From Amphirosellinia nigrospora (lineage: Eukaryota > Ascomycota > Sordariomycetes > Xylariales > Xylariaceae): a DNA stretch of 64,000 nucleotides. Below are positions 15,121 to 62,849 of the stretch, in pieces. The position numbers were made by a program, and so were the translations under genes. The first letter of the stretch is position 1; every line of letters begins with the position of its first letter. The notes under the pieces were generated by a model. It was not told where the DNA came from. It made no database searches and was given only the letters and a program-made list of their open reading frames with translations. The stretch spans positions 2,933,058 to 2,997,057 of the forward strand of contig SCHM01000003.1 in NCBI GenBank assembly GCA_004123355.1, written 5' to 3'.

Positions 15121-15366
15121 CAGTGGGGCAGCAAAAAAACGAGTCAAAACGCGGGGTCGCGAATTTACGCGTTAAATTTCTAAATCACTTTTTACTACTA
15201 CTTTTTTTCAACCATGCCTAGCTAAGCTAATTTATTAGCAAATAATCGTAAAAAGCAATAAAATCCTTATAAAAAACGAAAATTAAAATATTATATATTT
15301 TAGGGTATTAACCTAAATATTTAACCCGGTTATTTAGGATCGTGCAGTACTATATACGGCTACTTT

Positions 15367-15567
15367 TGTTAGATTTAGTGATATATATATATTGATCTAT
15401 TTATATATTGCTGCCAAGCTTAATTAAGGCATTTTTAGTACAAAATACTTAACGGGAGGATTAGCTATTAGTTAAACCTCGGCGTATTATTATATATATT
15501 AAATAAGCAACCGGGTAATTTATCTAGTAATATATAAATAGATTATTAGTTAGTGCGTAATTTAATA
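15367..15567. repeat. LTR of element X, left
   Basis: 201 bp. Near-identical blocks recur at 38172-38370 and, inverted, at 42732-42931; shared landmarks are TATATATTGCTGCCAAGCTT, GGCGTATTA and AACCGGGTAAT. Differences between copies are mostly C/T and G/A. Confidence 0.8.
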
Positions 15568-15985
15568 TATTTTTTTAAAAAAAGTAAATTTAGTTGCTTT
15601 TTTTAGGTTTTAATTAATAGGCGTATAATTTATATAAAATATAATAAATAAATCGTTTATTAACATATTATAATAATAAATATTTATAATTTATATTTAA
15701 TAAAATATTATAAAATTAGTTTATTATATAACTAAATAAATATAAATAATTATATAAGTAGTAATAGTTAATTTATTTATATAAATATTAGCTGCTTTTT
15801 TTTTTTTTTTTTTTGTTTTTTAGCTATTATAATTTTAAAATTTATAAATAAATAATTATACGTATTTATATACATACTTTTTAAATAATAGCCGAAATTA
15901 ATATTAATTTATATATAGTTTAATTAAATAATTATAAGCTTTTAATATATATTTAAATTATTTTTAATAATATATATAATATTAA

Positions 15986-16154
15986 TATAAAAGGTTATAG
16001 CTTTAAAGCTAGGAAATACTATTTATTAACTATAATAAAAGAAAAAAATCTATGCGCGCTAGCGTATATAAAAAGGCTACTATATAGTAGCTCTAGCTTA
16101 GGGCTAGAGCTATAACCTAGGTTATAAGCTTATTAGCCTAGCTAACCTATAATA
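15986..16154 (-). repeat. LTR of Gypsy copy A (left, 3' LTR in element sense)
   Basis: 169 bp running from TATAAAAGG to CCTATAATA, corresponding to TG...CA before RIP. Internal landmarks are GCGCGCTAGCG and AACCTAGGTT. It matches 22976-23143 and both LTRs of copy B. Confidence 0.8.
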
Positions 16155-17969
16155 TTATTCCTTTTTTTACTTGCTTATAAACATAAGTATAGCTAATAGG
16201 GCGCAAAAAATAATTTTCTGCCGTTAGGCCTTACTTAATAATATATTGCCGCTTTATACCGCTTTTGCTTAACTATATAAAAAAAAAAGGTCTTCCTTTT
16301 AGTTTTTTTTTTTTTTTTTTTTTTAACTTATTACTTTTATAAATCTTACTATTTTTAAACGCTTAATTTATAATTAAAATATAAGTTATTTTTTATTTAC
16401 GTTAAAATAATAAAAAGTTATTCGTTTTTAATATATTTTAAAGCAAATATATATTTTAAACTAGTATAGCTATTAATTAGCTGTTTATTAGCTATTTTTA
16501 CTTTATTTTTGCTTTATTTTTACTTTTATTTTTAAAAAAAACTAATTATTATAAGCTTAAATAGTTTTTTTTTAGCTTATAAGCTATTTATTTACTTGTT
16601 TAATAAAGCTTAAGATTTTTTATACTATAAAATAATTATTTAGCTATTTTTATTTATTTAATATTTATTTATAGTAATATATAATATATTTTTTATTTAA
16701 CTAAAAACTTTTAAGCTTTTTATATTAACGCTAAAAATAAATAATAGTTCGTTTAATATTTTTAACCGCTTTTAAGCTTTATCTTTTTAAAACTGCTTTT
16801 TTTTTACTAACGCGCTATTAAATACTAATAAACGCTATAACGCTTGCGCTAGTTTAAATAAAAAATTAAAATATATATATATTTTTATAAATATTTTATA
16901 TTTATTTTTATTTTTTTATTATTAATAAACAACTTTATAACTATTTTATATTATTAATATAATTAAAGCTTTTAAATTATATAACGTTATATATAGTTAT
17001 AATAGCAAAAATATAAATATATTAATATATTATATTAATTTAATATTTGCTAATTTTTTGTTTAAATATTATTATAATTTAAAAAACTACTAGCGCGTTT
17101 ATTATATAAATTATAAGTTTTTATAGCTTTAAAACTATTTTTTTTTTATTAATAAATAATTTAAGCGCTAAAAAAAAACTCTTAGTTTTATATTTATTAT
17201 TTTTTATAAAATAATAGCTTAATATTTATAAATAAATAGCTTATTATAAGCTAAAAAATAAATAAATATTTATAAACTATTAATAATATTTTTTTTTTAT
17301 TAAGTATATATTATAAAATATATTTTTTTTGCTTAAAAACGTTAAGTTTTTTTTAAGCAAACTATTTTTAAGCTTGTTTTTTTAGTTAAAGTTTTTATTT
17401 AGTAAAAAAGCGGTATAAAAAATATTTTTAAGCTACGTAATTATAGCGCTAGCTATAATACTTTTGCTAATAATAATAGCGCTACGGATAAAAATATTAA
17501 TATAAAAATTAATTAATAGTTTTATTTTTATTTTATATAAGTTTATTAATAATTTTTTATTTTTTTTAGTAAAATAGTTTAAGTTTTTTATAGTTTAAAC
17601 TTTAGCTAATATAGCTATTTTTTCCCCGCGAACTACCCGCTTTTTTTTTATTTTTAAATAAAATAAACTAATTTATTATTAACTAAAATAAAAAAAATAA
17701 ATAAAAATAAATAAAAAAAAACAAATAATATATTTTATATAACCTACTATATATACTTAACTAATAAATTACTATTTAATTATTTTTTAATTATTTTTTA
17801 AGTATTTTTTAAAAGTATATTTTAAAAATATTTCTATTTTATTATTTAATAGCGCAAGCTTTTTTTTTTTCGCTATTAGTTTAGTATATTTATTTATAGC
17901 TTTATAATAGCGTTTAAATAGCTTTAACGTTTTTATTTTTTTAAAGTTATAAATTAGCTTTTATATAAG

Positions 17970-18175
17970 TAAGAAGAATATTATAGGTTATAAAGTAAAG
18001 CTTGATTAAGAAGGAAAAGAACCTATTATTAGATCCACGCAGTGGATCTAATAATAGATTCTTTAACTAGCAGTGTGCCAGCTGTCTATCTAGATATAGG
18101 TGTTGCCAGGTGGCTTCCCCTTGCGCTCCACGCAAGGAAGCCACTGGCAACACAGACCCCTTGGGGGCTCTATTA
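17970..18175. mobile_element. S1: 206-bp hairpin-rich LTR-like insert inside Gypsy copy A
   Basis: Copy B lacks this segment, so B serves as the empty site. Comparison gives a 5-bp duplication ATAAG (17965-17969 and 18176-18180). The core is far richer in G+C, CA and TG than its surroundings. It holds a GATCCACGCAGTGGATC palindrome and a stem of about 25 bp (GTGTTGCCAGGTGGCTTCC pairing with GGAAGCCACTGGCAACAC, inner arms CCTTGCG/CGCAAGG). Size, 5-bp duplication and TA...TA (formerly TG...CA) ends fit a solo LTR or a short non-autonomous element. A second copy is S2. Confidence 0.7.
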
Positions 18176-21100
18176 ATAAGCTATTAATAACTTTTTTATT
18201 TTATTAAAATTTATTAATAAATTAAGCTTTTTTTATTTTTTCTGCGCTTATTTTTTATTTAAAATATATTTTTTATTTAATATTCGTTTTATTTAAATAT
18301 TATTATTAAAAATTAAACGTTTAAATTTAATTATAAAAATAAAAATTAATAATAGCTTATTATAATAAATTAATATAAAAGCAGAAATATATTTTTTTAA
18401 AAATATTAAACTTTATTATATATAAATTAATAATTTTAATAATTTTATATTTAAAATATAATTAAACTAATTTTTAAAAAAGCTAGTTTATAGTAATATT
18501 TTTAAATTTAGCTATATTTAGTTATTTATTTTATAATATTTAATAAAAAATCGTTTAATATTAGTTATTTTTTTTATTTTTATTATATTATTATTATTGC
18601 TATTTAAACAAACTATTAAATATTTTATAACTTTTAAATAAAATTTTTATTAAAACTTTTAGTTTATAAGCATATAAATAAATATTTTATTTATTTTATA
18701 AGTTTAATATAATATTTATATTATATAAAAAAAAACTTAGCTTTATAATTAATAAGTTTTTATTATTAATTATAAATATTGCTTTTAAAAATAAATTTTT
18801 TTAGTTAAACTATATATAAGCTATAAAAACGTAAAAATAAACTAATATTTTTTAGTTTATTTATTTTATTGTTTTATTAGTTTTTAAATAATAAATTATA
18901 TTTAGTTTTTATTTAATATTAATTAATTTATATAATTATTATTAAAAGCTTTTTATTTAGTTTAATTTTTAATTATTTATAATATTTTTAAAAAATTTAT
19001 AAAAACGTTAAAAATAATTAATAAACTATTTAATATATATTTTTACGTTTATTAAGTTTATTATTTTTATTATAACTATTTTATTTAATTTATTTATAAT
19101 AATTATTATAAAAAATAAATTGTTTTTATTTTTATTAGTAAATTTATTATAAAATTTATTAATAGTTTATTTTAAAACTATTTTAATATTTAAAAGCTTA
19201 AAAATTTTTTTTTTTATATTTTTAAACGTTTTTTTACTATATATATTATAATTATTAATAAAATAATATATTATTTAATATATTTTTAGCTAAAAATAGC
19301 TTTTTAATAAAATAACTAAAATATTATTATATTTTAAATAATTAACTAATATAAAATTATAATAGTTTTAAATTAAACCGGTTTAAAATAATTTTTATTT
19401 TAATATTTATATTTAGCTTTAATATTTAAATAAATTATTAGTTCCGATTTTATATTTAAATATTAATATATTAAAAAGTTTTTTTTAATTTTAAAATTTA
19501 TAAAGAACTTTTTTTTATTATTTTTATAGTTTTTATAGCTAGCTAATAGTTTAAATATTATTTTATAGCTATATTTTATTTTTATTATAAGTTTTTATTT
19601 ATAAAAACGTTTTATTTTATAAAATTTTTTTATTTATTAGTTTTATAGCTATTATATAAATATTAATTTTTAGTTTTTTTTTATTTATTTTTTTTTTAAA
19701 AATTAAAATTTTTAGCCGAAAAATTGTTTATTAATCTTAAAAAATAAATTTTATTTTCGTTTAAAAAAAACGTTTAATCGTTTATTATTTATTTTAGCTT
19801 TATAAAATAATATAAACTTAAAATTTATAAAAAATTTAATTTATTAAATTTATTATTTAAAAAATCTTTTAGTTATTATAAAATATTTTAAATTTTTATA
19901 GTTTAATAAAATTAAAAACGTTTTTTTAAACTTTAAAATTTAATATTTTATATTTTTAAATAATTTATTATTATTAATAGTTTTTTATTATATATTTATA
20001 GTTAATTTTATAAATAAAAAACTTTCGAAAAAATAAATTATTAAACAAAAAATTTTTATTTATTATTAAATTAACTTTTATAAATTTTTAAATAATTAGC
20101 TTTTATAACTATAAGCTTATTTAAATTAAATTAAAAAATTAATTTAATATAAAAAAACTTTTAAACTTTTCGAAAATTATTTTTTTTATTTTTTTTTAAT
20201 AAAAAAAAACCTTTTTTTTATAAATAAAATAATATAATAATATTTAAATATTTAAAAATAAACTACTAATAAAATTTATAAATTTTAAAAAACTTTTTAT
20301 ATTTTTAAATAATTTAAAAGCTTTTTATTTTTAAATAATTTTTTTTTTTAAAATTTATATATATTTTAACGCTTATTTAATAATAATTAAAATATTTAGT
20401 TTTTATTTTTTAAATTTATATTTATTAATATTAAAATATAATTTTATAGTTTTAAAACGTTTAATATTTTTTTATTTTTTTATATAGTTTTTTTTTTATT
20501 AAACTATATTAAAATATTATTTATATATATAAATATAAATATATTTAAATATTAATATAAAATTAAATTTATATAGTATTAAAATATAGCTAAAGCTTTA
20601 ATAGCTTAAAAAAAATAATAATTATTTAAAAAGTCCGAACTAAATATAAAATGCTATTTTTTATTTATTTTTTTTTTAATATAAAGTTTATAAAAAATAG
20701 CTTTTATATTTAGTTTAAAAACTAATATATTTTAATAAATTTATTAACGTTTTTAAAATTAAAAAAAAAATATTTATTTATTTATATTATAATATTAAAC
20801 GTTTAATAATTAATAAAAATATAACTTTTTTTTTAGTTTTTTATAAATAATATTAAAGCTTTTATTAATAAACTATTAATATAAATATAACTTTTATTAA
20901 ATAGTTTTATAAATATTTTTTATAATATTAATAGTTTATTTTTAATATATTATATAATAATTTTTATAAAACTAAAAGTTTTTATTTTTATTATTTTATA
21001 TAATAAATTTATAATTTATTTTTTATAATATAAAAATAATTTTTTTTTTTTTATCGAATAGTTTTATTTAAAGTTTAAATTTTTTAATTTATATTTTACT

Positions 21101-22975
21101 TTTGTTATATTTTTTAGCGCAATATTTTATAATATTTATTAATATAATTATAAATATTAATATATTTATTATTTTAAAACGTTTTAATTTTTTAATTTTT
21201 TTTAAAAACTATTATATTAAACTATTTAACTTTTTATATTTATTATAATATTAAATTTTTAATATATAATTAACTTTTATATTTTAAAATAGCTAGTTTT
21301 TTTATATTAATTATATATTTATAAGCTATATATTATTTTTAATTTTTTTATTTATAATTTTTTAAAATTAAATTATATTATAAATAATTTATTATATACG
21401 TTAATATTTATTATTAAAAACTATTTATATTAGTTTTTACGTAAATTATTTTATTAATAATTTTTTGCTTTATTATTATTTTTTATAGTTTTTTAATATA
21501 ATATTAATATATAATAAATATAAACGCTAGGCTAATAAACTATTTATAATAGCTATATATTTATAATTTTAATTTATTAATATTTTAATAATTAATATTT
21601 TATTATAAATAAAATTTATAATAAAAAATATATTATTTATATTATTTTAGTTTAGCTTTTAAGCTTATAAAAATTAAATTTTTTATATATTTTTATTTAT
21701 AATTAAAAATAAAAATTTATTTTTTAAAGTTTATTAATAAATTTTTAGTATTTATTATTTATTTATAGCTTTTATTTTATTATTATATTATATTAGCGTA
21801 AAAAAATATTTATTAATAAAATAGCCCGTTTTTTTATATTTAAAGTATTATTTATTAGTTTTTTATTTATTTAATTTAATATTTAATACTTAATAAATTA
21901 AATTATAATAAACTAAAATAATATTAATAGCTTTAATTTTTATTATAATTATATTATTTTTAACGTTTATAATAAAAATAAAAATTAATAAATAAATAAT
22001 AATTATTATTTTTTTTTATTATTTTTATATTAGTTCTAGCGTAATAATTTTAGCTTTTAAAATAGCTAATTATAGCTATAATTTTATTAATTTATTTATT
22101 ATAATTTTTAAAAAATTACTTTAAAAAATTAAAACAAAAATAAACTATTTTTTAGTATTTTTTTTAATATAATTAGCTTAATTTTATTAGTTTATAATAT
22201 TATTTATATTTATAAATATATATTTTTATTTTAAAAAAAATTTAAAAAATAATTTTTTATTTTATATAAATAAAAATAGCTTTAAAATAATTTTTATAAG
22301 CAATTAATATTAAATAATAATTATAAAAAAACTATATAAATTTATAAAGTTATAAATTTAAAAACGTTTATTAATAATAAAAAATAATATAGTTATAGCT
22401 TTAATAATATTTTTAAATTGTTTATTAATTTAGTAAAACTTATTATAATTATTTTTATAAACTTAATATTTTAATTAAATTTTTATTTTATAATTATTTT
22501 TTTATAAAAAATTTCGTATAAATATTTATAAATTTATTTAGCTAAAATAAAAGTTTATTTTAATTTATTAAAAAAATTAACTATTTTTTATAAAATTTTT
22601 TATTTATAAATTTTATTATAAAAATAATAATATTAATATTAAATATTAAAATATAAAAATAAAAATAATATTATAATATATTTATTTATTTTTTATAGCT
22701 ACTATATATAGCTTAACGTTTAAATTTTATTAATTATTAAAAATAGTTTAAATTTATTTAAAAAAATTAATATTATTTAATTAATAATAATTATTTATTT
22801 TTATAGCTTTTATTAAAAACTATTTAATAAAGCTTAAATTATATTATTTAAGCTTTAAATTATTATAAAAAGTTTTATAAAAAACTTTTTTACTATTTAT
22901 ATATATTAGTTTTATTATTATATAACTAATAAATTATATATTTATTATTTAAAAATAAAATAATCGCAGTTAATA

Positions 22976-23143
22976 TATAAAAAATTATAGCTTTAAAACT
23001 AAAAAATACTGTTATTAACTACAATAAAAAAAAAAAAATCTATACGCGCTAGCGTATATAAAAAAGCTATTATATAGTAGCTCCGGCTCGGGCCGGAGCT
23101 ATAACCTAGGTTATAAGCTTACCAGCCTAGCTAACCTATAATA
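22976..23143 (-). repeat. LTR of Gypsy copy A (right, 5' LTR in element sense)
   Basis: 168 bp, partner of 15986-16154. The central palindrome GCTCCGGCTCGGGCCGGAGC (23077-23097) is better preserved here than in the other three copies. Confidence 0.8.
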
Positions 23144-23568
23144 ATTAATAGTTATTAAGTTTAATATTAATAATATTTAATTATTAATATATAAATAAAA
23201 ATTTTATTATATTGTTATTTTTTTTATAAGTATTATTTATATATTTATATAATTTATTATTAAATAGTTTAATAGTTTATTTTTTTTTGTTTTTATTTTT
23301 ATTTTTAAATAAAAAAAATATTTTTATTTGTTATTTTTATTATTTTTAGCTTTTAGCTAGCTAATTTAGGTTATATTAAATATATAGCGCTTATAAAGTT
23401 TTATTATTATTATTTTTATATATTAGTTTATTAAGCTTTAATTATTACTATTATAATTATTATTTTTTAAAATTGTTAATTTAACGTTAAACTTTTTAAT
23501 ATTTTTATTAATTTAATTAAGCAAATAATTTAAATAATATTAGTTTTTATTTTAGTTTTATTAAAATG

Positions 23569-23601
<33 letters not shown>

Positions 23602-24050
23602 AGCTGTTTTTTTATTATTATTAGCCCGGTTTATTATTTATATAATTATAAAAATAATATAAGTTATTATTACGTTATTTTTTATTTTAAACTAAAGTAT
23701 TTATTAGTTTATTATAAAATTTTATATTTTTAATATATTAAAAGCGTTTTTATAAATTATTTTAATAATAATTATATAAAAACAATTAATAATAAAATAT
23801 ATTATTAATATTATATTTTTAAATATATTTATAAAAAGCTATAAATAATTTTTATTTTAATAATTAATAATTATTTAATAATAATTAGTTTTAAAAATAT
23901 TAAGCGGCTTTTTTATACTTTATATAATGTTTTAATCGAACGTACTATTATTATTATATTTTTGCTATATGTTTTTTGCCGAGCTTATATATTAGTTTAC
24001 CGCTTTGCGTACTATAGTGCGTATTTTGTTAAAGCTTTTTAAAGCAGCAG

Positions 24051-24090
<40 letters not shown>

Positions 24091-25971
24091 GCTAGTTAAA
24101 ATTAAGCTCTAGCTATTTAAGTAGCAAAATCGCGGGCTTTTTAAACAGTTGTTTTTTTTAAATTATATATAATAGCTTTAAAGCTTTAAATAAAAATTAA
24201 TTAATTTTTTATTTATATATAAATATTTATAATTTAAATTTTAATATTTAATAAATAAAAAATAAAATATTAATTAATAATTTATTTAGTTAATTTTTGT
24301 TTATTAGTTAGTTTTTAATTTTTTTTAATATAAATAATTAGTTTGCTAGTATTATTAGCTTAATAAATAGTTTAGCTAATTTAGTTATTAAAAAACGTTA
24401 TTTATTATTAAATAAATAAAGCTTTAATAAAACTATTAATAATTATTTTTAATAAACATATATATTATTATTAAGTTTTATTTTTAACTTTTTAGCGTAA
24501 TTAATAATTATAAATATTAATATATTATAGCTTAATATATAAAAAAGCTAATTTTTAATAATTAGTTTTATAGTTTATTAGTTATTATATTAAATTTAAA
24601 TATATTATAAATATAAAATTATATTAAACTTAATAATAAGCTTATTAATATTATAGCTTTTTAGTAGTTTAAACTAGCGTTAATAATTTAGTTTTTATAA
24701 TAAACGTTATAATTATATTTTATTTATTAGCTTTTAGCTTATAATTTTATTAAAAAGCTTATAATATAGCTTAAAAGTTTTTTTTATTAATAGTATTATT
24801 AATAAATAATATATTATTAATTATTATAAAATTATTTTTATTGCTAAATTATAGTATATAATATTATATAAATAATAAATATAAAATATTTATTTATAGC
24901 TTTATAATATTTAAAAAAAAAGTTATAATTAAACTATAATAGCTTAAAAATAACGAACGTTATATTTAAACGTATAATAATAGTTATATATAAAATTAAA
25001 CTTATTTTTTATTAATATTATATATTTAAAAATAAAGCTATTTTTTTATATAAAAATAGCTTATTTGTTTTTATTAAAATAATATATATTATAATATTTA
25101 TATTTTAAAGCTTAGCGATTTTTTAATATAAAAAGCTTAAAATAATTATAATAGTTATTTATTTATTTTAAATTATTTTTATTTTAAAAACTATTATAAA
25201 TTTTTATTTTTAATTAATTTATACTAAGATTTAATATAATAACTATTATATTATTAATATAAATAAAAATAAATATTTTATTTTTTAAAAAATAATAAAG
25301 TTCGTAAAATATTAGTTTAAAACTAATTTCGTTTAATAATTTCGAAAGCTTTTTTATTATAATAAAAAAAATTCTTATAAACTATAAAAAGTTCGTAATA
25401 GTTTAATTATAATATTTGCTTTTTTATAGCTAAAAATATATATATATAAACTTTTTTAATAAGTTTTACGTTAATAAAAATATTTATAATATTATATTAT
25501 TTAAATTTAAAATTAAATTTAATAATAATTATTATTAAAGTTTTAAACGATTTTTTTAAAATATTATTAAATATTTTTTTATTATAGCTTAGTTTTTAAT
25601 TTTTATATATTATTAACCGGGTTTTATATTTATAATAATATTTATATTTATTAAATTTATATATATATTTATATATAATTAAAAACTAGTTTATTTAAAG
25701 TTAAACTTTTAAATATTTTTTTTAAGTTTTATTTTTAATAGTTTTATAAATAAATATTTTGTTTATTTAAAATAATTTTTTAATAAATATAAATTAAGTT
25801 TTTTATATTATTTTAGAAGTAAAAATAAATTTTAATAATATATACGTTTTTTTAAAATAATAGTTTTATAAATAAGTTTTAAAAAATAATTATTAGCTTA
25901 AAAGATTTTTTTATTTAGTTCGTAAACTTTATAAAAATATTTTTTTTTTATTTTATTTAAAGCTTTATTAA
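23144..25971. other. Internal part of element X between Gypsy A and insert S2
   Basis: 2.8 kb of A+T-rich RIP-decayed sequence with no open frame. It contains a TTA trinucleotide run near 23574-23601 and a 36-base A run at 24051-24086 next to a slightly G+C-richer patch (23940-24130). Assignment to X rests on its position between insertions with target duplications. Confidence 0.5.
24051..24086. repeat. 36-base A tract inside element X
   Basis: Uninterrupted poly(A) following AAAGCAGCAG in a patch slightly richer in G+C than its surroundings. It could be the tail of a non-LTR insertion or a simple-sequence expansion; no target duplication was identified. Confidence 0.6.
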
Positions 25972-26173
25972 TATAAAGAATATTATAGGTTGTAAAGTAA
26001 AGCTTGATTAAAGGAAAGAATCTATTATTAGATCCACGCAGTGGATCTAAAACAGATTCTCTAACTGGCAATGGTGCTAGCTGTCTAGCTAGATACAGGT
26101 GTTGCTAGGTGGCTTCCCCCTGCGCTCCGCGCAGGGAAGCCACTAGCAATACAGACCCCTTAGGGCTCTATTA
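25972..26173. mobile_element. S2: second copy of the hairpin-rich LTR-like insert
   Basis: 202 bp, colinear with S1, with the same GATCCACGCAGTGGATC palindrome and the long stem around CCCTGCG/CGCAGGG. The two copies differ at scattered sites. No clean target duplication is visible here (ATTAA on the left, ATTTA on the right), so the exact ends are less certain than for S1. Confidence 0.65.
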
Positions 26174-26792
26174 ATTTAGTATTTATAATTAATATAAGTA
26201 ATAAATAATAAGCTTTTATAAAAGTATTTTTTTTATTTAAAGCTTTTATTAATATTTAATATTTATAATTAAATAAATAATAAATAATAAGCTTTTATTT
26301 AAGTTTTATAAAAAAAGTACGACTAAGTAAAAAAAAAGTTTTTTTGTTGATAAAAAAATTTTTATTTTTTATATTTTAAATAAGAAATTCTTTTACCCGA
26401 ATTAAAAATCCTTTTTTTATTTATTATTATATATATTTAGTTTTAATATTTATTTTTTATTATATAAATAACTATAAATTTAATAAAATAATTTAAAATT
26501 AAATATTTATATAAAAATAATAAATAATATAAATAAATATAAAAGTTTTATTTTTAATTTTTTTTTATTATAAATTATATTAAATTTAATTATATTAAAT
26601 TTAATTTTATATTAAATTTAATTATTTAATAATTATATATTCTATTAAACTTAATTATTTATAATTATATATTATATTAAATATAATTATTTAATAATTT
26701 ATTTAATTATTATAGTATTTATTTTTTATTTTTTAATTTAATATTAATTTAAATATTTATTATTTTTAAGTTATAAATTAATATTATATTAT

Positions 26793-26960
26793 TATAAAGG
26801 GTTGTAGCTTTAAGGCTAGGAAATATTATTTATTAACTGCGATAAAAAAAAAAAAAATCTATACGCGCATATATATAGAAAGCTATTATATAGTAGCTCT
26901 AGCTTAAAGCTAAAGCTATAACCTAGGTTATAAGCTTATTAGCCTAGCTAACTTATAATA
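26793..26960 (-). repeat. LTR of Gypsy copy B (left)
   Basis: 168 bp starting TATAAAGGG and ending ATAATA; pairs with 33576-33744. A T-rich tract just inside (26963-26972) is the complement of a polypurine tract, supporting minus-strand sense. Confidence 0.8.
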
Positions 26961-27127
26961 TTACTCTTTTTTTTTACTTGTTTATAAGCGTAAATATAAC
27001 TAATAAAGTATAAAAATAATTTTCTACTATTAAGCTTTATTTAATAATATACTATTATTTTATACCGCTTGTTTATTAATATTGCTGCTTTATACCGCTT
27101 TTGTTTAACTATATAAAAAAAAAGGTT

Positions 27128-27163
<36 letters not shown>

Positions 27164-30100
27164 TTATTTTATAAATTTTATTATTTTTAAACGCTTAGTT
27201 TATAATTAAAATATAAGCTATTTTTTATTTACGTTAAAGCAATAAAAAACTATTTATTTTAATATATTTTAAGCAAATATATACTTTAAACTAATATAGC
27301 TACTAATTAACCGTTTATTAATTATTTTTATTTTATTTTTGCTTTATTTTTATTTTTATTTTAAAAAAAAACTAATCGTTATAAGCTTAAATAGCTTTTT
27401 TTCGGCTTATAAACTATTTATTTACCCGCTTAATAAAGCTTAAGATTTTTTATACTATAAAATAGCTATTTAGCTGCTTTTTATTTATTTAGTATTTATT
27501 TATAATAATATATAATATATTTTTCGTTTAGCTAAAAACTTTTAAGCTTTTTATATTAACGCTAAAAATAATAACGGCTTATTTAATATTTTTTAACTGC
27601 TTTTAAGCTTTATTTTTTTAAAGCTATTTTTTTTTTATTAATACGCTATTAAATACTAATAAACATTATAGCGTTTATGCTAGCCTAAATAAAAAGTTAA
27701 AATATATAATATTTTTATAAATATTTTATATTTATTTTGCTTTTTACTACTAATAAATAGTTTATAGCTATTTATATTATTAATATAATTAAAGCTTTAA
27801 TAAATTATATAATATTATATATAGTTTAATAATAAAAATATAAATAAATATTAATACGTTATATTAGCTTAATATTTGCTAATTTTTATTTAAATATTAT
27901 TATAACTTAAAAAATTATTAATATATTTATTATATAAATTATAAATTTTTATAGCTTTAAAACTATTTTTCTTTTATTAACAAATAGCTTAAACGCTAAA
28001 AAAAACTTCTAGTTTTATATTTATTATTTTTTATAAAAATAATAGCTTAATATCCATAAATAAATAGTTTATTATAAGCTAAAAATAAACAAATATTTAT
28101 AAACTATATTAATATTTTTGTTTTATTAAATATATATATAAAATATATTTATTCTTATTTAAAAGCGTTAAATTTTTTTAAACAAATTGTTTTTAAGCTT
28201 ATTTTTCCGGTTAAAATTCCCGTTTAATAAAAAAATAATATAAAAAATACTTTTAAACTATATAATCGTAACGTTAACTATAGCGCTTTTACTAGTAATA
28301 ATAGCGCTATAAATAAAGATATAATATAAAAATTAATTAATAGCTTTATTTTTATTTTATATAAACTTATTAATAACTTTTTATTTATTTTTTAATAAAA
28401 TAGTTTAAACTTTTTATAGTTTAAACTTTAGCTAATATAGCTATTTTTTTTTATAAACTATTTATTTTTTTTATTCTTAAATAAATTAAACTAATTTATT
28501 ATTAACTAAATAAAAAAAAAATAAATAAAAATAAATAAAAAAAAAATAAATAATATATTTTATATAACCTACTATATAATATTTAGCTAATAAATTATTA
28601 TTTAGTTATTTTTAGTTATTTTTTAAGTGTTTTTTAAAATATGCTTTAAAAATATTTTTGCTTTACTATTTAATAGCGTAGGTTTTTTTTTTTTTTTATT
28701 ATTAGCTTAATATACTTATTTATAACCTTATAATAACGTTCGAACAGTTTTAACGCCTTTATTTCTTTAAAATTATAGATTAGCTTTTATATAAGCTATT
28801 AATAACTTTTTTATTTTATTAAATTTATCGGTAAACTAAGCCCTTTTGTTTTTTTACGTTTATTTTTTATTTAAAATATATTTTTATTTAATATTTATTT
28901 TATTTAAATATTATTATTAAAAGTTAATATTTAAGTTTAATTATAAAAATAAAAGTTAATAATAGTTTATTATAATAAATAATATAAAAATAAAAATATA
29001 TTTTTTAAAAATATTAAGCTTTATTATATATAATTAATTTTTAATAACCTTATATTTAAAGTATAATTAAGCTAACTTTTAAAAAAGCTAGTTTATAATA
29101 ATATTTTTTAAATTTAGCTATATTTAGTTATTTATTTCGTAGCGTTTAATAAAAAATCGTTTAATATTAGTTATTTTTTTATTTTTATTACTTATTATTA
29201 TTATTGTTTAAACGAATTATTAAATATTTTATAACCTTTAAATAAAAGCTTTTATTAAAGCTTTCGGCTTATAAGTAAATATAATAATATTTTATTTATT
29301 TTATAAGTTCGGTATAATATTATATTATATAAAAAAAAGCTTAGCTTTATAATTAATAAGTTTTTATTATTAATTATAATATTATTTTAAAAATAAATTT
29401 TTTTAGTTAATATATATATAAGTTATAAAAACGCAAAAATAAACTAATATTTTTAGTTTATTTATTTTATTATTTATTAGTTTTTAAATAATAAATTATG
29501 CTTAGTTTTATTTAATACTAATTAATTTATATAATTATTACTAAAAAATTTTTTTTTAGTTTAATTTTTAATTATTTATAATATTTTTAAAAAATTTATA
29601 AAAACGCTAAAAAATAATTAATAAACTATTTAATATATATTTTTATATTTATTAAATTTATTATTTTATTATAACTATTTTGTTTAGTTTATTTATAATA
29701 ATTATTATAAAAAATAAGTTGTTTTTTTTTATTAATAAATCCGTTATAAAATTTATTAATAGTTTATTTTAAAACCGCTTTAATATTAATAAAAGTTTAA
29801 AAAATTTTATTTTTTATATTTTTAAACGTTTTTTTGCTATATATATTATAATTATTAAAATAGCGTATTATTAATATATTTATTAAAAATAGCTTTTTAA
29901 TAAAATAGCTAAAATATTATTACGTTTTAAATAATTAACTAATATAAAATATAATAGTTTTAAATTAAACTAGTTTAAAATAGTTTTATTTTAATATATA
30001 TTATTTATTTAAATAAATTATTAGCTCCGATTTTATATTTAAATATTAATATATTAAAAAGTTTTTTTTTAATTTTAAAGTTTATAAAGAACTTTTTTTT

Positions 30101-30939
30101 ATTATTTTATAACTTTTATAGCTAATTAATAGTTTAAGTATTATTTTATAGCTATATTTTATTTTTATTATAAATTTTTATTTATAAAAATATTTTATTT
30201 TATAAAGATTTTTTATTTATTAGTTTATAGCTACTATATAATACTAATTTTTAGCTTTTTTTTATTTATTTTTTTTTAAAAGTTAGAATTTTTAGCTAAA
30301 AAGTTATTTATTAATTTTAAAAAATAAGTTTTATTTTTATTTAAAAAAAATATTTAATTATTTATTATTTATTTAACTTTATAAAAAATAATTAAAATTA
30401 ATAAAAAATTTAGCTTATTAAACTTATTATTTTAAAAAATTTTTTAGTTATTATAAAATATTTTAAATTTTTATAGTTTAATAAAATTAAAAATTTTTTT
30501 TAAGCTTTAAAGTTTAATATTTTATATTTTTAAGCAATTTATTATTGCTAATAGTTTTTTATTATAATTTTATAATTAATTTTTAAATAAAAAGTTTTTA
30601 AAAAAAATAAATTATTAAATAAAAAATCTTTATTATTATATTAAAATAAACAATTTTTATAACTACTTTAAATAATTAGCTTTTATAACTATAAATTTAT
30701 TTAAATTAATTAAATAAAAACTAGCTTTAATATAAAAAAACTTTTAAACTTTTTAAAGCTACTTTTTTTATTTTTTTTAATAAAAAAAGATTTTTTTTTT
30801 ATAAACAAAATAAATAATATAATAATATTTAAATATTTAAAAATAAACTATTAATAAAAGTTTATAAATTTTAAAAAGCTTTTTATATTTTTAAATAATT
30901 TAAAAGCTTTTTATTTTTAAATAGTTTTTATTTGTTTAA

Positions 30940-32445
30940 AGTTTATATATATTTTAACGCCCGCTTTAATAATAAATTTAAAATATTTAATTTTTATTAT
31001 TTTAAATTTATACTTATTAATATTAAAATATAATTTTATAGCTTTTAAAACGTTTAATATTTATTTTATTTTTTTATATTTTTTTTTAATTTATTAAACT
31101 ATATTAAAACGTTATTTATATATATAAATATAAATATATAAATATTAACGCAAAGCTAAGTTATATAGCGTTAAAATATAGCTAAAGCTTTTAATAGCCC
31201 GAAAAAATAACTAGCTATTTAAAAAATCCGAACTAAATATAAACATTGTTTTTTATTTATTTTTTTTTTAATATAAAGTTTATAAAAAATAGTTTTTATA
31301 TTTAGCTTAATAAACTAGCGTATTTTTAATAAATTTATTAATATTTTTAAAATTAAAAAAAAAAAATATTTATTTATTTATATTATAATATTAACGTTTA
31401 ATAATTAATATAAAAATATAATTTTTTTTTTTTTTATAAATAATATTAAAGTTTTTATTAATAAATTATTAATATAAATATAGCTTTTATTAATAATTTT
31501 ATAAATATTTTTTATAATATTAATAGTTTATTTTTCGATATATTATATAAAAGTTTTTATAAAACTTAAAGTTTTTATTTTTTATTATTTTGCGCGAAAA
31601 ATTTTATAATTTATTTTTTTATAATATAAAAATAGTTTATTTTTTTTTTTTTATCGAATAGTTTATTTAAAGTTTAAGCTTTTTAATAATTATATTTTTA
31701 TTTTTATTATATTTTTAATATAAACGCTTTTATAATATTTATTAATATAATTATAAATATTAATATATTTATTGTTTTAAAACGTTTTAATTTTTTAATT
31801 TTTATTTTAAAAACTATTATATTAAGTTATTTAACTTTTTATATTTATTATAGCTATTAAGTTTTTAATATATAATTTAATTTTTATATTTTAAAATAGT
31901 CGGCTTTTTTATACTAATTATATATTATAAGCTATATATATTATTTTTAATTTTTTTATTTATAGTTTTTTTAAAATTAAATTATATATAAATAGTTTAT
32001 TATATATATTAATATTTATTATTAAAAATTATTTATATTAGTTTTTACGTAAGTTATTTTATTAATAATTCTTTGTTTTATTATTATTTTTTATAGTTTT
32101 TTTAATATAATATTAATATATAATAAATATAAGCGCCGGGCTAATAAGCTATTTATAACAGCTATATATTTATAATTTAATTTATTAATTTTAATAATTA
32201 ATTTTTATTATAATAAAAATATACTGTTTATATATTGTTTTAGTTTAGTTTTTAAATTTATAAAAATTAAATTTTCTATATATTTTATTTATAATTAAAA
32301 ACAAAAGTTATTTATTTTCCGATTTTTAAATTTATTAATAAATTTTCTATTTATTACTACGTTTTAGTTTTTATTTTTATTACGTTATATTAGCGTAAAA
32401 AATATTTATTAATAAAATAGCCCGTTTTTTTATATTTAAAACATT
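30940..32445 (-). pseudogene. Decayed Gag-Pol segment of Gypsy copy B (zinc knuckle to reverse transcriptase)
   Basis: Reading minus-strand frames and allowing RIP-type changes, the order is zinc knuckle (about 32443-32400), a possible aspartic-protease region (about 32180-32000), then reverse transcriptase (about 31150-30950). This Gag-PR-RT order agrees with Ty3/Gypsy. No frame is continuous. Confidence 0.6.
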
Positions 32446-33575
32446 ATTTATTAGCTTTTTGTTTACTTAGCTTAATATTTAATATTTAGCGGGCTTAAAG
32501 CTTATAATAAGCTAAAATAACGCTAGTAATTCTAACTTTTATATTAATATATGCTTTTAATATTTATAATAAAAATAAACTAATAAATAAATAATATTTG
32601 TTCTTTTTTTACTACTTTTTATATTAGTCCTCTTAATAATTTTAGCTTTTAAAATAGCTAATTATGTTATAACTTTATTAACTTATTTATTATAATTTTT
32701 AAAAAATTACTTTAAAAGATTAAAATAAAAAAAGCTATTCGTTTAATACTTTTTTAAGTATATTGCTTAGCTTTATTAGTTTATAATATATTGCTTATAT
32801 TTATAAATATATGTTTTTATTCTAAAAAAATTTAAAAAATAGTTTTTTATTTTATATAAACGAAAATAGCTTTAAAGTAATTTTTTATAAATAGTTAACG
32901 TTAAAATAATAATTATAAAAAAATTATATAAATTCTATAAAGTTATAAATTTAAAAACGCTTGCTAGTAATAAAAAATAATATAGTTATAGCTTTAATAA
33001 TATTTTCGAGCTATTTATTAATTTAGTAAAACTTATTACGGTTTTTTTTTATAAACTTAGTATTTTAATCGAGTTTTTATTTTATAGCTACTTTTTATAT
33101 AAAAAATTTTATATAAATATTTATAAATTTGTTTAGCTAAAATAAAAGTTTACGTTTTAATTCGTTAAAAAAATTAACCGTTTTTATAAAATTTTTTATT
33201 TATAATTGCTTTATTATAAAAAATAATAATATTAATATTAAATATTAAAGCATAAAAATAAAAACAATATTATAATAATTTGTTTATTTTTTATAGCTAC
33301 TATAATAGCTTAACGTTTAAATTTTATTAATTATTAAAAATAGTTTAAATTTATTCGGAAAATATTAATACTGTTTAATTAATAATAATTATTTGCTTTT
33401 ATAACTTTTATTAAAAACTATTTAATAAAGCTTAAATTATATTATTTAAGCTTTAAATTATTATAAAAAGTTTTATAAAAAACTTTTTTACTATTTATAT
33501 ATTTATTAATTTTTATTATATATAGCTAATAAATTATATATTTACTATTTAAAAATAAAATAATCGCAATTAATA

Positions 33576-33744
33576 TATAAAAAGTTATAGCTTTAAAGCT
33601 AAAAAATATTATTTATTAACTATAATAAAAAAAAAAAAATCTATACGCGCTAGCGTATATAAAAAGCTATTATATAGTAGCTCTAGCTTAAGGCCAAAGC
33701 TATAACCCAGGTTATAGGCTTACCAGCCTAGCTAACCTGTGACA
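33576..33744 (-). repeat. LTR of Gypsy copy B (right)
   Basis: 169 bp ending CCTGTGACA. The undecayed GTGACA gives the original terminus, read as TGTCAC at the LTR start on the minus strand. Confidence 0.8.
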
Positions 33745-33964
33745 ATTATAAACTTTATTTAAATATAATTTTTATTAAGTTATTTTTTAAAAAAACTATA
33801 ATTATTATAAAATTAGCTATTATATTAGCGTAATAAATATAGCGGTATTTTTTACGGGGTATTTATTTATAACTTTTTATTTATTTTTTTATTTTTTATT
33901 ATAATATTTTAAACGTAATTTTTAAGTTTTTAAAGATTTTAAAGCTTTAAATTAATTATAATAA

Positions 33965-34372
33965 ACGTATTTTTTAAGTTTTCGAATTTTTTTTTTTTAA
34001 ACGTTTTAATTAGCTTATAAAATTTTTTTTAAACTTATTAGTAAGCTTAAGCTTTTTTTAAAAAGTTTTTTTTTTAAACGTTTTAATTAGTTTATAAAGT
34101 TTTTTTTAGATTTATTAATAAGCTTAAGTTTTTTTTAAAAAGTTTTTTTTTTTTTACGTTTTAGTTAATTTATAAGGTTTTTTTTAAATTTATTAGCAAA
34201 TTTAAACTTTTTCGAAAAAAAAAAAATTTAATACATTATAAAAATTAATATATTTTATAATAACATTATTATTTAAAATATAAAGTTTATAATTATATTT
34301 AAAATTAAAAATAGTTTATAATTATATTTAAAATTAAAAATAGTTTATAATTATATTTAAAATTTAAAATAA
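33965..34372. repeat. Two tandem arrays inside repeat Y
   Basis: First array: three units of about 77-78 bp, marked by ACGTTTTA at about 34001, 34078 and 34156 and by T-runs. Second array: three units of about 29 bp (AATTATATTTAAAATT...) starting near 34291, 34320 and 34349. Both recur inverted in the Y copy at 43.56-43.93 kb, so they are part of the element. Confidence 0.75.
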
Positions 34373-34870
34373 TAATTATATTTATTAAAAATTTTTTTTA
34401 ATTTTATTTAGGTTAAAAATCGTTTTAAAAATTTTAATATTATAGTAAATTTTTTTATTTAAAATAAAAATTAATTATTTGCTATAATATTTAATTTTTT
34501 AATTTTATTTATAGCTTAAAATTATAATTTAATTATAAAATAATAATATAACTTTAATATATATTATTATTATTATAAAATAAATATATAAAAATATTAT
34601 ATATTAATATTTATATTTATAAACAAATTTATTATTATTATTAATTAAATAGCCGAATATTTTTATAATATAATTATATAGTTATATAAAAAATAATAAT
34701 ATTATAATAAAAAATTAAAATAAAATAATAAGTTTTACTATATATAACTTATTAAAAAAAAACGAACTAATATAATTAATAACTATAATTTATTTATTAA
34801 TTTAAATACGTAGTTTTTAAAAACTTAAGCATTTTTACTTTTAAATTAAAAAGCTTTTAATATAAAAGTA

Positions 34871-37800
34871 TTTTTTTATAAATTAAATTTTTTTTTTATA
34901 TTTAATATTTAAACTTAAATATTATAATATTTAAAAAAACTTTTTAATAGTTTAGCTTTTATATTTTAATAGTTATTTTTTATTTATAATAAATAATTTA
35001 TATAATTAAACTATATTAAAATATATAGTTTATAATTTAATAAATTAATTTAAAAATATAAATTTATTTTAATTTTAATATAAATAGCTAAGCTAATTAT
35101 AGCTTATATTTAAATTAATAAGTTTTAATTATATTATAATTAAATTAAATAATATAGCTTTTAATAATTTTAATAATATAAATATATTAAAAAAAATTCT
35201 AAATTAATATATAAATAATTTTTAATATATATTTTTTAAATTGTTTTTATAAGTTTATTATTATTTAAATTAATTTTTTATTCGGTTTAATTTAATAGTT
35301 TAATAAAGTTTTAATAATAAATTTTTTAGTTTATTATTTTTTTATTTATAAAAATATTAGTTATTATTTTAGCTATATTTTAATAATTAATTTAGTTAAT
35401 AAATTTTTTATAATTTTTCCGGTTTATTTTTAAAAAATCGTTTTTAAATTTATTTTTATTATTAAAAACTTATTTTTATTAAAAATAATATTTTTTATAA
35501 TAATTATTTTATTTTTACGTAATAATTAAATTTAATAAATATTAAAAAATTAATATTTTATTAAATATTTTATTTAAATTTTAAAATTAAACTTTTTATG
35601 CTTTTTTTTTATATTTATAATAATTATAGTAAAAGTTATATATTTATATACTATTAAATATAAAATATTCGAAATTTATTTAAAACTTATATAACTTTAA
35701 ATTATTAAAATATAAATAAAACTTTTTATAAAAAGCTTTTTAGCTATTAATATAATAAAAAGTTTAATTATATAAATATATATATATAAACTATTTTAAG
35801 CTATAAAAAAGTAAAAAGTTTATATTTATTTTTATTAAGCTTGTTTATTATTTAATAATAGTTTTAATTTATTTTATTTTTTATTAAAATTTTAAATATA
35901 TAATAAAAAATCGTAAATTTAATACTATAAATATTTATATAAATTTTATTAATTAAATAGTTTATTTATAATATTTATTAGCTTATTATTATATTTTATT
36001 ATAATTATATTATTTTTATAATAAAGCTAAATATAATATATATAGTTTTTAAAAACTATTTATATAATATTAACGCGTTTATTATTAGCGTAATAATTTT
36101 ATATATATTTAAATATTTATTAATAATTAATATTATTTTTATAAGCTATTATTTTTTTATATTAAAGTTTATTAAATTTATAAAATCGATTATTAGCTAA
36201 ATATTAGTTTTAAAAACTTTAAATTAAGTTTTTTATATTATTTTTAATAAGTTTTTATAAAACTATAGTTAATATATTTTATAGTTTTAATTTATTATTT
36301 TTTCGAAAAAATATTATTTTTTTAGTATAAATTAATAATTATTTTAATAGTTTAAAATTTATATATTTTAAACGTTAATACTATTTATATATATTAGCTT
36401 ATAATTAAAACTTTTATATAAAAGTTTAAAAAGTTTTTTTAAGTATAAAAAATATATTTTATTAAACGTACTAAAAAATATTTTATAATAAATTATTTAT
36501 ATATTTAGGTTAATAAATATAAAAGCTTTTTTATTAATATTTTAAAAAATTTAAATTAAGTTTATTTTTTAGTAAATATTTTTATAATTAAAAGTTTATA
36601 GTAAAATAAAATTAATAGCTATATTAAAGCAAAAAATTATATTATAAAGCTTATAAACTATAAGTTTTTTTAATCTTTATATTTAATATTAATTTTTTAT
36701 AGCTATATATTTTAATTATATTATTATTAGCTAGTATTTATATTTTTTAGGTTAATATTTTTAAAATTTAAAAAATAATTTATTTAATTAAAAATATATA
36801 TATTAAACTTAAAGTTTATTATATATAATTATATAATATATAATTTAATAAGCTTTTTATTAATTATAAAAAAGTTTATAATATATATTATTAGCGGCCG
36901 TATATATTAATTTTTATATTAATTTATAAATTAATTGTTAAATTTAACGCGTTTTTTTTATTAGTTTTTAATATGTTTTATTATTTTTTTAATGCTATTT
37001 TTAATAATTATTTATATATAATAATATATTTAAAATAAGTATTAGTTTTAAAGTTTTTAAAGCGAAGCTTTAAAAAAATAAACTAATAGCTTATAATTAA
37101 ATATTTTTTATAATAAACTATATAATTTATTATATTAAGGTTTTTTTTTTAGTTTTAGTTCGTATATTTATTTTAAAATGCTTTATAAAAATATTTAAAA
37201 AGTTCTTTTTAAAATTATTACGTTAATTATTTAATTAGTTTTAAGCTATTTAAGAATATATTTTTCGCTTTTAATAAATTTACTTAAGTTAATTTTATTA
37301 GAATAAGCTAAATAATTTTTATATTTTTTTTATTTATTAGTTTTATAATAATAAAAGCTTTTTTTTAATAATCTTTATAAATATTTATATTATATTTAAT
37401 ATAAAAGCTTTATATTAAAGCTTAATAGCTATTATTTAATAATTTAAAATATTGTTTAAAATTTTATTGTTATAAATTTTTTTTAATAATATAGCTTAAA
37501 ATAAATTAATATTACGTAAAATTTTTTTAAATTAATTATAAGCTTAAATAATTTAGCAATATTTAATTTTTTAATATTTATTTTAATAATTTTATTTAAT
37601 TATTTATTAATTTATTTAGCGAAGTTTTTAATAAGTTTTTTTATTATAGTATTAATAAACGCTTTATAATTGCTTTAATATTTATATTTAAAAACTTAGC
37701 TTATTATTTCGCTAAGTTTTTTAAATTATTATACTATTAATTAAAAATCTAATAAACTTTTATATAAGTTAATTTATAGTTCGAATTTATTATTTTTTAT

Positions 37801-38171
37801 ATTTATTTAAAAAGCTTAATAATTTTGCTTTAATAAATATTATATTATTTTAAAGCAATATTATAGCGTTATTAAATATTAATATATAAAGTTTGTTTAT
37901 TTATTATTATTAATATTTATAAATAAAAAAAATTAAATATATTTAGTATGTTTAGTTTTATAGGCTAAAAAAATCGCGTTTTTTTTAGTTATAAATATTT
38001 TTAAAAATTTTTTAAAATTATAAACGTTATAAAATTTTGTTTTTATAATAAAAAATTTTCTAACGAATTAAAAGTTATAATAATTAATATAAATATAATA
38101 ATAATCTTTCGGTATATATTTTTATAGCTTTATTTTTTAATAAAATATAAAATTATAATAAAACTTTTAAT
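34871..38171. other. Internal part of element X downstream of repeat Y
   Basis: 3.3 kb of A+T-rich decayed sequence without an open frame. The section 37.2-38.17 kb is matched in inverted orientation by 42932-43067 plus 44658-45373 in the second X copy, which confirms it belongs to X. Confidence 0.6.
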
Positions 38172-38370
38172 TATTAAATTTAATAATATATATATTAATT
38201 TATTTATATATTGTTGCTAAGCTTAATTAAAGTATTTTTAGTATAAAGTATTTAATAAAAATATTAGCTACTAGTTAAGCTTTAGCGTATTACTACATAT
38301 ATTAAATAAACAACCGGGTAATCTATTTAATAATATATAGGTAAATCATTAATTAATGCATAATCTAATA
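38172..38370. repeat. LTR of element X, right
   Basis: 199 bp, partner of 15367-15567. It is followed at 38371 by ACTTT, the right copy of the target duplication, and then by T1 transposase sequence. Confidence 0.8.
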
Positions 38371-38375
38371 ACTTT

Positions 38376-39432
38376 TGCGCTATAATATCTAGAAATTTAC
38401 TACTTCCTTTCTACGCCCCGGCCGCCCGTATAAACTAAATATCGGCACAAAAAATATATTATTAAGCTTATAAAAGCTAATCTTTTTATTTTTTTACGCA
38501 AAGTATGTAAAATTACGTGCTTATACGTATCTATAAATACGCTATAAAAGTAGCTTCGCCGCGGAGGCGTTTATAATACGAACAAGCATTTCGCCAGCCG
38601 TTTTTAACCCTAGAAATAGCTGCGCAAAAGCTCAAATAAGCTTTCGAGCACTAAAATAAACTATTCGAGTATTAAAAACGTGTTTTTTTTAGTAACGAAT
38701 TAACTATTAAGCATAGTTACAAAACCGCGTAGCGTAAACTTTTCGTCGAAATAATCCGTTTTACCTTTTTATTTCGAAATAGCAAATCTAGCTTAAAACT
38801 AACCTATAGCTATATAATAAAAAAATCGCGTTTATTATTTTAATACGTACAACTTTACTATAAAAATCCGGGCTTAAATAAATATTCTAAAATAAATTTC
38901 GCTATAGCTACTGCTTTTTTTATTATTGCTTTCGATAAAAACCCCGAAATAAAATAAAAAAGTATAATAAATAAAATTTACTAACGCTTTTTTTAACAAA
39001 TATTTAGTTAAAACTTTAATTATAATTTTATATTTATATATATATAATATTCCTATTTATATAACTAATATCGTTATAAAGTAGCTCGAAACATAAAACT
39101 TTAAAATTTTCGATTAGCCTTTATATTCGCCCGATTTAAAACCTTATAAAAAACGTATAAAAACTACTTAAAAAACAAATCTATAAAGCTTACTTTAAAC
39201 TACAAACATTTAATAATATATAAAAAGCATTAGATTTGCTTATATACATAATAATTAAACAGTAAAAAAATATTACAAAAAAAACGTTAAATAACCTAAT
39301 AAAAAATATACCGCAGCAGATCGTAGTAATTATTATAGCCCGCAAATAATATACAAAATACTAGTAAGGTTATTTAAAAGCTATATCGCTTACAGATAAT
39401 TTATACTTTTAAATTTTTTTTTCTATTTAATT
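38376..39432 (+). pseudogene. RIP-decayed Tc1-like DDE transposase (3' part)
   Basis: Translation on the plus strand, allowing stops made by C-to-T and G-to-A changes, shows Tc1 landmarks. These include TPRPxRP followed by a Lys-rich stretch near 38410-38450, CLYVSINTL with LRRGGVYNTNK near 38510-38580, and near 39060-39160 the C-terminal signature with PIYITNIV, WLET-like and YSPDLKPYKKR. The last corresponds to the conserved SPDLNPIE block before the final acidic catalytic residue. Many in-frame TAA/TAG codons make it non-functional. The N-terminal part lies at 15121-15366, on the other side of the X insertion. Confidence 0.7.
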
Positions 39433-40737
39433 AAATATATAATTAAAATTCTAAACGTAGGGTATATCTTGGGGTAATATAGGGTTTGATCGGTAGCTCG
39501 TTATTTTTGCAAACCCGACTGTATATTCTTTTTTTATCTCTAGGAAGGAGGATCTCTTACCCTTTATGCTCGAAAATATCCTCCCATCTGTCTTACAGCC
39601 TCGCGGAGCTCTGCAGACCTGGAGTTTTTGTGTCTCTCGGTGATTTTCTCGGTCTTCGGTGAATGACTGAGACTCGTGCGACTCCGTTAGCCTCGTAGGG
39701 TAGTATTCAGCGAGATCTTTGGGACAGGTATTGCGGCACAAATTATTCTCCGATAGATAGTTACCGACTTACTAATATTGTAAGCTTTATTGAACGCTCG
39801 AATCCACCATAAGCGCTTAACAGCCCACGAGTCTGTTCGTCCAGCTAGCTAGTAATGAGTGGCTCATACGATGACGGCTGAACCCACGGACAAAGCTCCC
39901 GATGCCTACCAGTCATCTTTTCGGTGCTTTTCTTCTTCAGCCTGTAAGATACTCTACATCTTATTGTCCGACGCGCACTGATTAAATTAGGGGGCGCCTG
40001 TCGGGAAATGCATGTACCACATAGAATGATTTGCTTTTGTGCTCAGTATCCGGATAAAACTTTAGGACTCGATGGCTCCTGATATAGGAAGAAAGCGAAG
40101 CATGACGTAATATGACATGAAAACTGTCCCAAAACCCTCCGCGGCGTACAAATCGCCGATTGTCTGCTGGTCTAGCGTGTTTAACGAGCATGGGATCGGA
40201 GTTCAGTTTATGAACTGAAACATGCAGCATCCGGCGTCGTAGTTGAGTGCGGGTCGGCGGCTCCCCCGATCCCTCGGGGAAGCCGTACGCTGCCAGCATC
40301 TACACCGGCCACTGCGGAAGATTATAGTGGGTGTCTCAGAATTTGTATGCTCTCTTACAAAACCTAATAGAGTAAAGAGACGATGTCAGCGAAAAACTAT
40401 CAGACGGCTGTTGTCGTGGCTCAAGAATTCAGTTCCAAATTCTTCATTAAGTAGGCCGAGCAACTCATAGCGTAGAAGTACCTACCTACTCTATTATATT
40501 CAGTTTTTTACAACTATCGCTTGCGAGCTCACTACATAGGTAGATATTTTATCTAGTTAACGTCTTATGTAGGATTTTATCGCTAGTTGCGGTGAACTGA
40601 ATCTACTCAATCAAACTTTTATTTAAACAGTACGACGGGTACATCTTAAAAGCTGTTCTGTTAATAGACCATGATGAATTATAGATTAGACATTACACAT
40701 TGAGCCCAAGTACCTCCCAACCAAACACATCTATAAA
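39433..40737. other. Left part of the 3.3-kb normal-composition islet, no gene recognised
   Basis: The composition returns to normal right after the Tc1 end. Two minus-strand open frames (39451-39741, 96 codons, and 39982-40299, 105 codons) show no recognisable motif and are not annotated as genes. The segment 40470-40730 is A+T-rich and probably holds the 3' end of the acyltransferase transcript. Confidence 0.45.
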
Positions 40738-42931: not shown

Positions 42932-43067
42932 ATTAAAAGTTTTATTATAATTTTTATATTTTATTAAAAAATAAAGCTATAAAAATATATATTAAAAAAT
43001 TATTATTATTTTATATTAATTATTATAACTTTTAATTTGCTAAAAAACTTTTTATTATAAACTAGAG

Positions 43068-54899: not shown

Positions 54900-54904
54900 A
54901 GTTT

Positions 54905-62847: not shown

Positions 62848-62849
<2 letters not shown>

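Follow-up and report, generated by a model that had tools for sequence, protein, structure and literature searches.

What history produced the AT-rich block at 15-39 kb of the 64,000-nucleotide stretch of Amphirosellinia nigrospora DNA analyzed here (the window; C5:2933058-2997057, within a 48.1-Mb assembly of 11 contigs)? Across this block, the GC content per kilobase falls from approximately 50% outside to 6-23%, and a sequence-only reading had described it as a four-level nest of transposons whose order of insertion can be reconstructed. The pieces of the nest were placed by comparing the window with itself, after which the element ends were read off the sequence. We found one Tc1-type element, T1, extending over 24.4 kb and holding six later inserts at a depth of up to four. 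T1 contains the long terminal repeat (LTR) element X; X contains the Gypsy-type element A, the probable solo LTR S2 and the Helitron2-like element Y; A contains the solo LTR S1, and Y contains B, a member of the family of A. The deepest paths run from T1 through X and A to S1, and from T1 through X and Y to B. We put the probability that this stretch is a Tc1-type copy with successive nested insertions at about 0.95.

The case for the nest is carried by host copies that are uninterrupted where the nest copy is not. We compared 20 X loci, 20 Y loci, three T1 relatives and nine stretches from A relatives at the S1 site, and the T1/X, X/A, Y/B, A/S1 and X/S2+Y junctions were read base by base. 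Uninterrupted sequence was found at the A site in all 15 X copies holding that part (14 by a strict script and the fifteenth, L015, via a joined search; this part is absent from the remaining five X loci), at the S2 site in 17 of 18 X copies, and at the Y site in all 18 X loci with both flanks (a recount using the final ends of Y; looser ends gave 17). The one exception at S2 is L018: it carries a separate Y close by, elsewhere within the same short run of repeats, and shows no interruption where the nest copy has its Y. The S1 site was intact in 10/10 other A-family copies, B included, the B site in 23 of 26 copies of the Y flanks, and the X site in two of the three T1 relatives. Hosts were thus found uninterrupted at all six internal junctions, bearing out the nesting and its four-level depth. 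The sequence-only reading had also suggested looking for host copies that share an insertion at the same place or fail to align across the joins; no fetched copy of T1, X, Y or A shares an insertion with the nest at the corresponding position, and the flanks align across all six junctions in other copies.

The target site duplications (TSDs) claimed earlier are each present exactly at the element ends: ACTTT for X (15362-15366 / 38371-38375), ATTAA for A (15981-15985 / 23144-23148), ATTAT for B (26788-26792 / 33745-33749) and ATAAG for S1 (17965-17969 / 18176-18180). Random 5-mer pairs drawn from the region agree in 1.6%, so that in DNA this AT-rich a single TSD is weak evidence; here, four exact 5-bp duplications stand against a 1.6% chance per pair. 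The same evidence bears on a patchwork of repeat fragments joined by segmental duplication, ectopic recombination or misassembly, which would mimic a nest. The window does hold inverted and repeated fragments of the nest families, and AT-rich DNA gives spurious alignments at 63-70%. However, the flanks are continuous elsewhere with a gap of 0 at X/A in 13 of 14 scored copies, at Y/B in 17/23 and at A/S1 in 10/10, and the duplications lie exactly at element ends, making a patchwork extremely improbable. Three points nevertheless tell against successive insertion. The support at T1/X comes from two diverged relatives only, i.e., L042 (82% identity), which is continuous across the site, and L043 (66-71%), which is continuous in two readings, one of them base by base, and did not pass the thresholds of the strict script (the third relative, L041, has no left part in the fetched stretch). 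Of the three exceptions at Y/B, two were ended by the fetched stretch and one carries a deletion of ~50 nt. Finally, the joins are taken as they stand in the assembled contig.

The outermost host, T1 (15122..39521, plus strand), retains 1391 bp of its own sequence at 15122-15366 and 38376-39521, between TA duplications at 15120-15121 / 39522-39523. Its terminal inverted repeats, read by eye, are CAGTGGGGCAGCAAAAAAACGAG and, as the reverse complement of the other end, CAGTCGGGTTTGCAAAAATAACGAG. The earlier reading placed the right end of the nest at 39432, short of position 39521 where T1 stops. Transposase evidence was taken from the relative L042, not from the sequence of T1 itself: with stops read as X residues, L042 matched DDE_3 (PF13358) at 56.1 bits (cut-off 28.6), and HTH_Tnp_Tc3_2 at 26.8 bits, below the cut-off of 31.5, on a strand co-linear with T1. 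On its TA duplication, its inverted repeats and the Tc1-type DDE transposase of L042, T1 is a Tc1/mariner element. The earlier estimates of a restored 1.3-kb Tc1 element and a ~7-kb LTR element agree with 1391 bp for the pieces of T1 and 7070 bp for those of X, and X plus its contents measures 23,004 bp, in line with the 23 kb of growth claimed for a single target site.

Element X (15367..38370) is an LTR retrotransposon with LTRs of ~200 bp, whose own pieces lie at 15367-15985, 23149-25971, 26179-26296 and 34861-38370. Like A and B, it has direct LTRs, TG..CA-type ends and a 5-bp TSD, several of the TG/CA ends of the three elements now reading TA after transitions. The minus strand is its probable orientation, as suggested by one weak match on the minus strand of the X locus L014 to the integrase domain SH3_retrovirus (PF25597; 23.6 bits, cut-off 27, E 5e-5). 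This single match, below its cut-off, is also what a possible assignment of X to Ty1/copia rests on, and further scans added nothing to it: no domain was found in three forward frames of L014 or in the three frames of L002 scanned, and none of the 16 RVT_2 places in the genome falls within a fetched X locus. Separately, three insertions, namely S2 and the Y elements of the nest and of L018, cluster within a few hundred bases of X (25972-26296; L018:3337-5161), a stretch of tandem units of ~86 bp that may be an insertion hot spot.

Both Gypsy-type elements are read on the minus strand. A (15986..23143) has LTRs of ~160-170 bp and measures 6947 bp without S1 and the S1 duplication; B (26793..33744) measures 6952 bp, and the two are 82-85% identical. 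An RT_RNaseH_2 match (PF17919) at C4:8735678-8735944 (38.4 bits, cut-off 29.8) sits between the LTR matches of the A-family member at C4:8732652-8739721, and, judged by its strand, the coding sequence of both nest elements is on minus. Through the RT-RNaseH of this one family member, A and B are Ty3/Gypsy elements; that the six frames of B itself gave no protein domain speaks against the assignment.

What were the two short inserts, S1 and S2? S1 (17970..18175, plus as the LTR strand) is 206 bp long, and S2 (25972..26173, plus) is a full-length LTR that retains a right TSD, ATTTA, at 26174-26178. S copies are ~205 bp long, internally palindromic, numerous and little mutated, features that would suit an independent short element, i.e., a miniature inverted-repeat transposable element (MITE) or a short interspersed nuclear element (SINE). 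S1-like matches, however, recur on one strand 7.7-7.9 kb apart. We read four such pairs, each with a 5-bp outer duplication (TAGAA, AAACT, TAAAT and GCCTT/GCTTT, the two copies of the last differing by one transition) and with conserved inner flanks that differ from one side to the other; moreover, unmutated copies start with TG and end with CA. Given that paired copies with outer TSDs and differing inner flanks mark S as an LTR, S1 is a solo LTR and S2 probably another, and a MITE or SINE, rejected on the paired copies, is very unlikely. S1 itself consists of one LTR with its own TSD and has paired relatives. Two observations do not sit well with solo LTRs: no matching 5-mers were seen outside another candidate pair (L053/L059, on C9, with a spacing of 5.0 kb), and S2 is missing its left TSD. 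This TSD and the first bases of the LTR apparently disappeared together in a deletion of ~6 bp, since the X copies uninterrupted at S2 fit insertion at ATTTA followed by such a deletion at the left junction. As solo LTRs of a ~7.9-kb element, S1 and S2 would each record an insertion plus a deletion.

Insert Y (26297..34860, plus; 496 + 1111 bp without B) differs from the LTR elements in having no TSD. It was inserted between T and T, and the T at 26296 may be Y's own first base. When its copies were aligned, conservation ran from (T)GCTTGAGTTTTATAAA at the left through CCTCTAG at the right, beyond which the sequence varies. An asymmetric inverted repeat is formed by TGCTTGAGTTTT at the left end and AAAACTCAAGCA ~31 nt inside the right end. 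The flanks of 24 copies were tried and 23 scored (L034 was dropped). All 23 have T on both sides; the script gave 23/23 at the right and 22/23 at the left, the remaining copy, L036, having been anchored on an earlier motif and being preceded by T on re-reading. Duplications of at least 4 bp were found at the ends of at most one of the 23. At 15 of 18 X loci the flanks of the nest's Y overlap by exactly one T, which means either no duplication or that this T is Y's own first base. Allowing no more than one mismatch, we counted 114 genomic occurrences of the 3' end and 0 of a reversed control. A second X fragment outside the nest, a comparison copy found inverted by self-comparison (42734..45393, minus), carries a further Y, likewise flanked by T and T, at another point in X that corresponds to about 38042 in the nest copy.

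By its asymmetric inverted repeat and its fixed target without a TSD, Y is Helitron2-like, in the manner of a non-autonomous member. Two results count against this: hairpin formation at the 3' end was not above that of shuffled sequences (z -0.11), and a genome search for the Rep domain (PF14214) found no autonomous partner, the same search being silent in control genomes. The hairpin was not treated as defining, because FoHeli3-5 of Fusarium oxysporum are reported without one (PMC5148889). The same two results, together with the 12-bp inverted repeat near both ends, would fit a conventional terminal-inverted-repeat DNA transposon or another non-Helitron element. Such an element would still have to accommodate a right repeat ~31 nt inside the end, T on both sides of every scored copy with almost no duplications, and X sites of Y that show none, and we regard it as unlikely, although it retains some weight beside the Helitron2-like assignment. 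According to the account in PMC5148889, FoHeli3-5 resemble Y in ends that begin with TGC-, in an inverted repeat 20-40 bp inside the 3' end and in lacking a 3' hairpin. They differ in their 3' termini (CTCCTGT, compared with CCTCTAG then T in Y), in size (9-11 kb, compared with 1.6 kb and no recognized gene in Y) and in being described without a target preference, whereas Y lies between T and T; a TT target is listed there for Helentrons. The layer identities of the sequence-only reading otherwise hold, with S1 and S2, which it left as inserts, recognized as a solo LTR and a probable one, respectively, and Y, which it took as a plain repeat, as Helitron2-like and free of a TSD.

How much of the order can be read from the nest? 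By containment, X arrived later than T1, each of A, S2 and Y later than X, S1 later than A, and B later than Y. Containment gives no ranking among A, S2 and Y, nor between S1 and B. The history had been called complete; the partial order stands, but the completeness does not, given the unranked siblings and the two deletions that have to be added. In the sequence of events that we propose, X inserted into T1, followed within X by A, an S-family LTR retrotransposon (now S2) and the Helitron2-like Y, with a second S-family element (now S1) entering A and B entering Y. X, A, B and S1 each duplicated 5 bp, and Y entered its T-T site with no duplication, presumably by a rolling-circle mode. Both S elements would have lost their interior, most simply by recombination between their LTRs, and would have collapsed before being mutated. 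Mutation of the C-to-T type would then account for long elements at 5-16% GC beside spared 0.2-kb solo LTRs.

The sequence-only reading had further proposed dating each layer from LTR sites insensitive to repeat-induced point mutation (RIP). This fails: the LTR pairs differ by 36 transitions and one transversion over 197 aligned sites in X, 18 and 0 over 167 in A, and 23 and 0 over 164 in B, so that 77 of 78 substitutions are transitions and, with zero or one transversion per pair, the layers cannot be ordered. Private purine/pyrimidine differences numbered 21/6415 in X, 12/1497 in Y and 0/577 in A near S1. The higher value in Y than in X is the reverse of what nesting predicts for a clean clock and so runs counter to our order; because it contradicts the nesting, we take this measure to reflect the sampled relatives and alignment noise rather than age. 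We also asked whether the TSD of A reveals that A landed in an X that had already been mutated. With a first base of A in the two nest copies and of G in 5/15 X copies, it proved uninformative.

With the LTRs of X (GC 0.25 and 0.16) set aside, the long layers have 5-16% GC, which seems very low, and (CpA+TpG)/(ApC+GpT) indices of 0-0.3; T1 has a GC of 0.26-0.31. In contrast, S1 and S2 have a GC of 0.42-0.44 and indices of 1.25-1.29. Both composition and transition bias fit RIP, which is the probable mutation process. To compare LTRs across the S family, we read 38 of 40 scored places (S1, S2 and 36 loci, drawn from the places that ranked as most similar to S1). Eleven were solo with an exact TSD, S1 included, and 23 were attached to elements (22 according to motif rules, L059 on visual inspection). 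S2, with its left TSD lost, was left out, as were the unclear L076 and L081, and L083, which the script called TSD-flanked, yet whose left side resembles element interior (GC 0.29). The median GC was 0.47 for solo and 0.32 for attached LTRs. A GC of at least 0.42 was seen in 10/11 solo copies (10/12 with L083) as opposed to 2/23 attached ones (Fisher P 5e-6, without L083) or, counting one LTR per known pair, 1/18 (P 6e-6, without L083); as the sample is the top of a similarity ranking and the labels are simple motifs, these P values are indicative only. S1, S2 and 9/10 of the other TSD-flanked solo copies (9/11 with L083) thus reach this level.

A similar pattern is reported for crapaud of the Podospora anserina complex, in which LTRs of full copies are mutated and solo LTRs mostly are not (PMC10787394). 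That report leaves open whether recombination preceded RIP or gene conversion later restored the solo LTRs, and the S family shares both the pattern and the unanswered question of its cause. The S LTR is shorter (206 bp, compared with 339-443 bp) and, unlike what is described for crapaud, S1 and S2 lie within elements mutated to 8-16% GC. Shortness was rejected as a simple reason for escape: in Neurospora, RIP can be triggered by closely spaced repeats with 155 bp of perfect homology and is substantially promoted by 220 bp (PMC4858203), which puts 206 bp near the limit and not safely under it. Dispersion and divergence of the S copies may matter.

Elsewhere in the genome, several same-strand A-family LTR matches lie 8-30 kb apart rather than 6.3-6.8 kb, and gaps of ~14 kb on C6, and of 8.4 and 6.8 kb on C4, separate pieces of X. 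Judging from this spacing, these are probably interrupted copies, and nests look ordinary in this genome. Among the stop-free matches listed, 5/5 for RVT_2 and 11/18 for RT_RNaseH_2 are located on the small contigs C9 and C11, and C1, C4 and C9 carry six Gypsy matches that have long open frames and an identical score of 93.2 bits; these matches possibly mark a compartment or family escaping RIP. Within the window, the nest is flanked on the left by a PEP-mutase/isocitrate-lyase-like frame (13754-14368, plus) and on the right by an alcohol-acetyltransferase-like frame inside a GC-rich island (40738-41916, minus). A further AT-rich block at 45357-63998 has large inverted and repeated segments (45357-47772 with 52472-54912, and 51415-52489 with 54891-55974) and is possibly a second nest. 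An Rfam search of the window returned nothing at gathering thresholds.

The nest illustrates a known kind well but is not something new. Nested insertions are reported in the transposon-rich compartments of the RIP fungus Zymoseptoria tritici (PMC9970103), which share insertions within insertions, RIP-like mutation and the transposon-rich setting with the T1 nest; unlike in that case, as far as its account goes, each junction here was checked against uninterrupted host copies. It is therefore a clean worked case, in which every join is checkable even though most of the DNA has less than 16% GC. Tentatively, and at somewhat less than even odds, we propose that it tells more: that S elements became solo before RIP, with recombination between LTRs running ahead of RIP and short islands free of mutation being left in saturated AT-rich DNA, and that Y represents a possibly undescribed Helitron2-like family with more than 100 termini. 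The solo LTRs of the nest bear on the question raised in Podospora, i.e., whether collapse came before RIP or gene conversion came later (PMC10787394), and Y points to a high-copy Helitron2-like family in a kingdom where, per PMC5148889, Helitrons have been little investigated.

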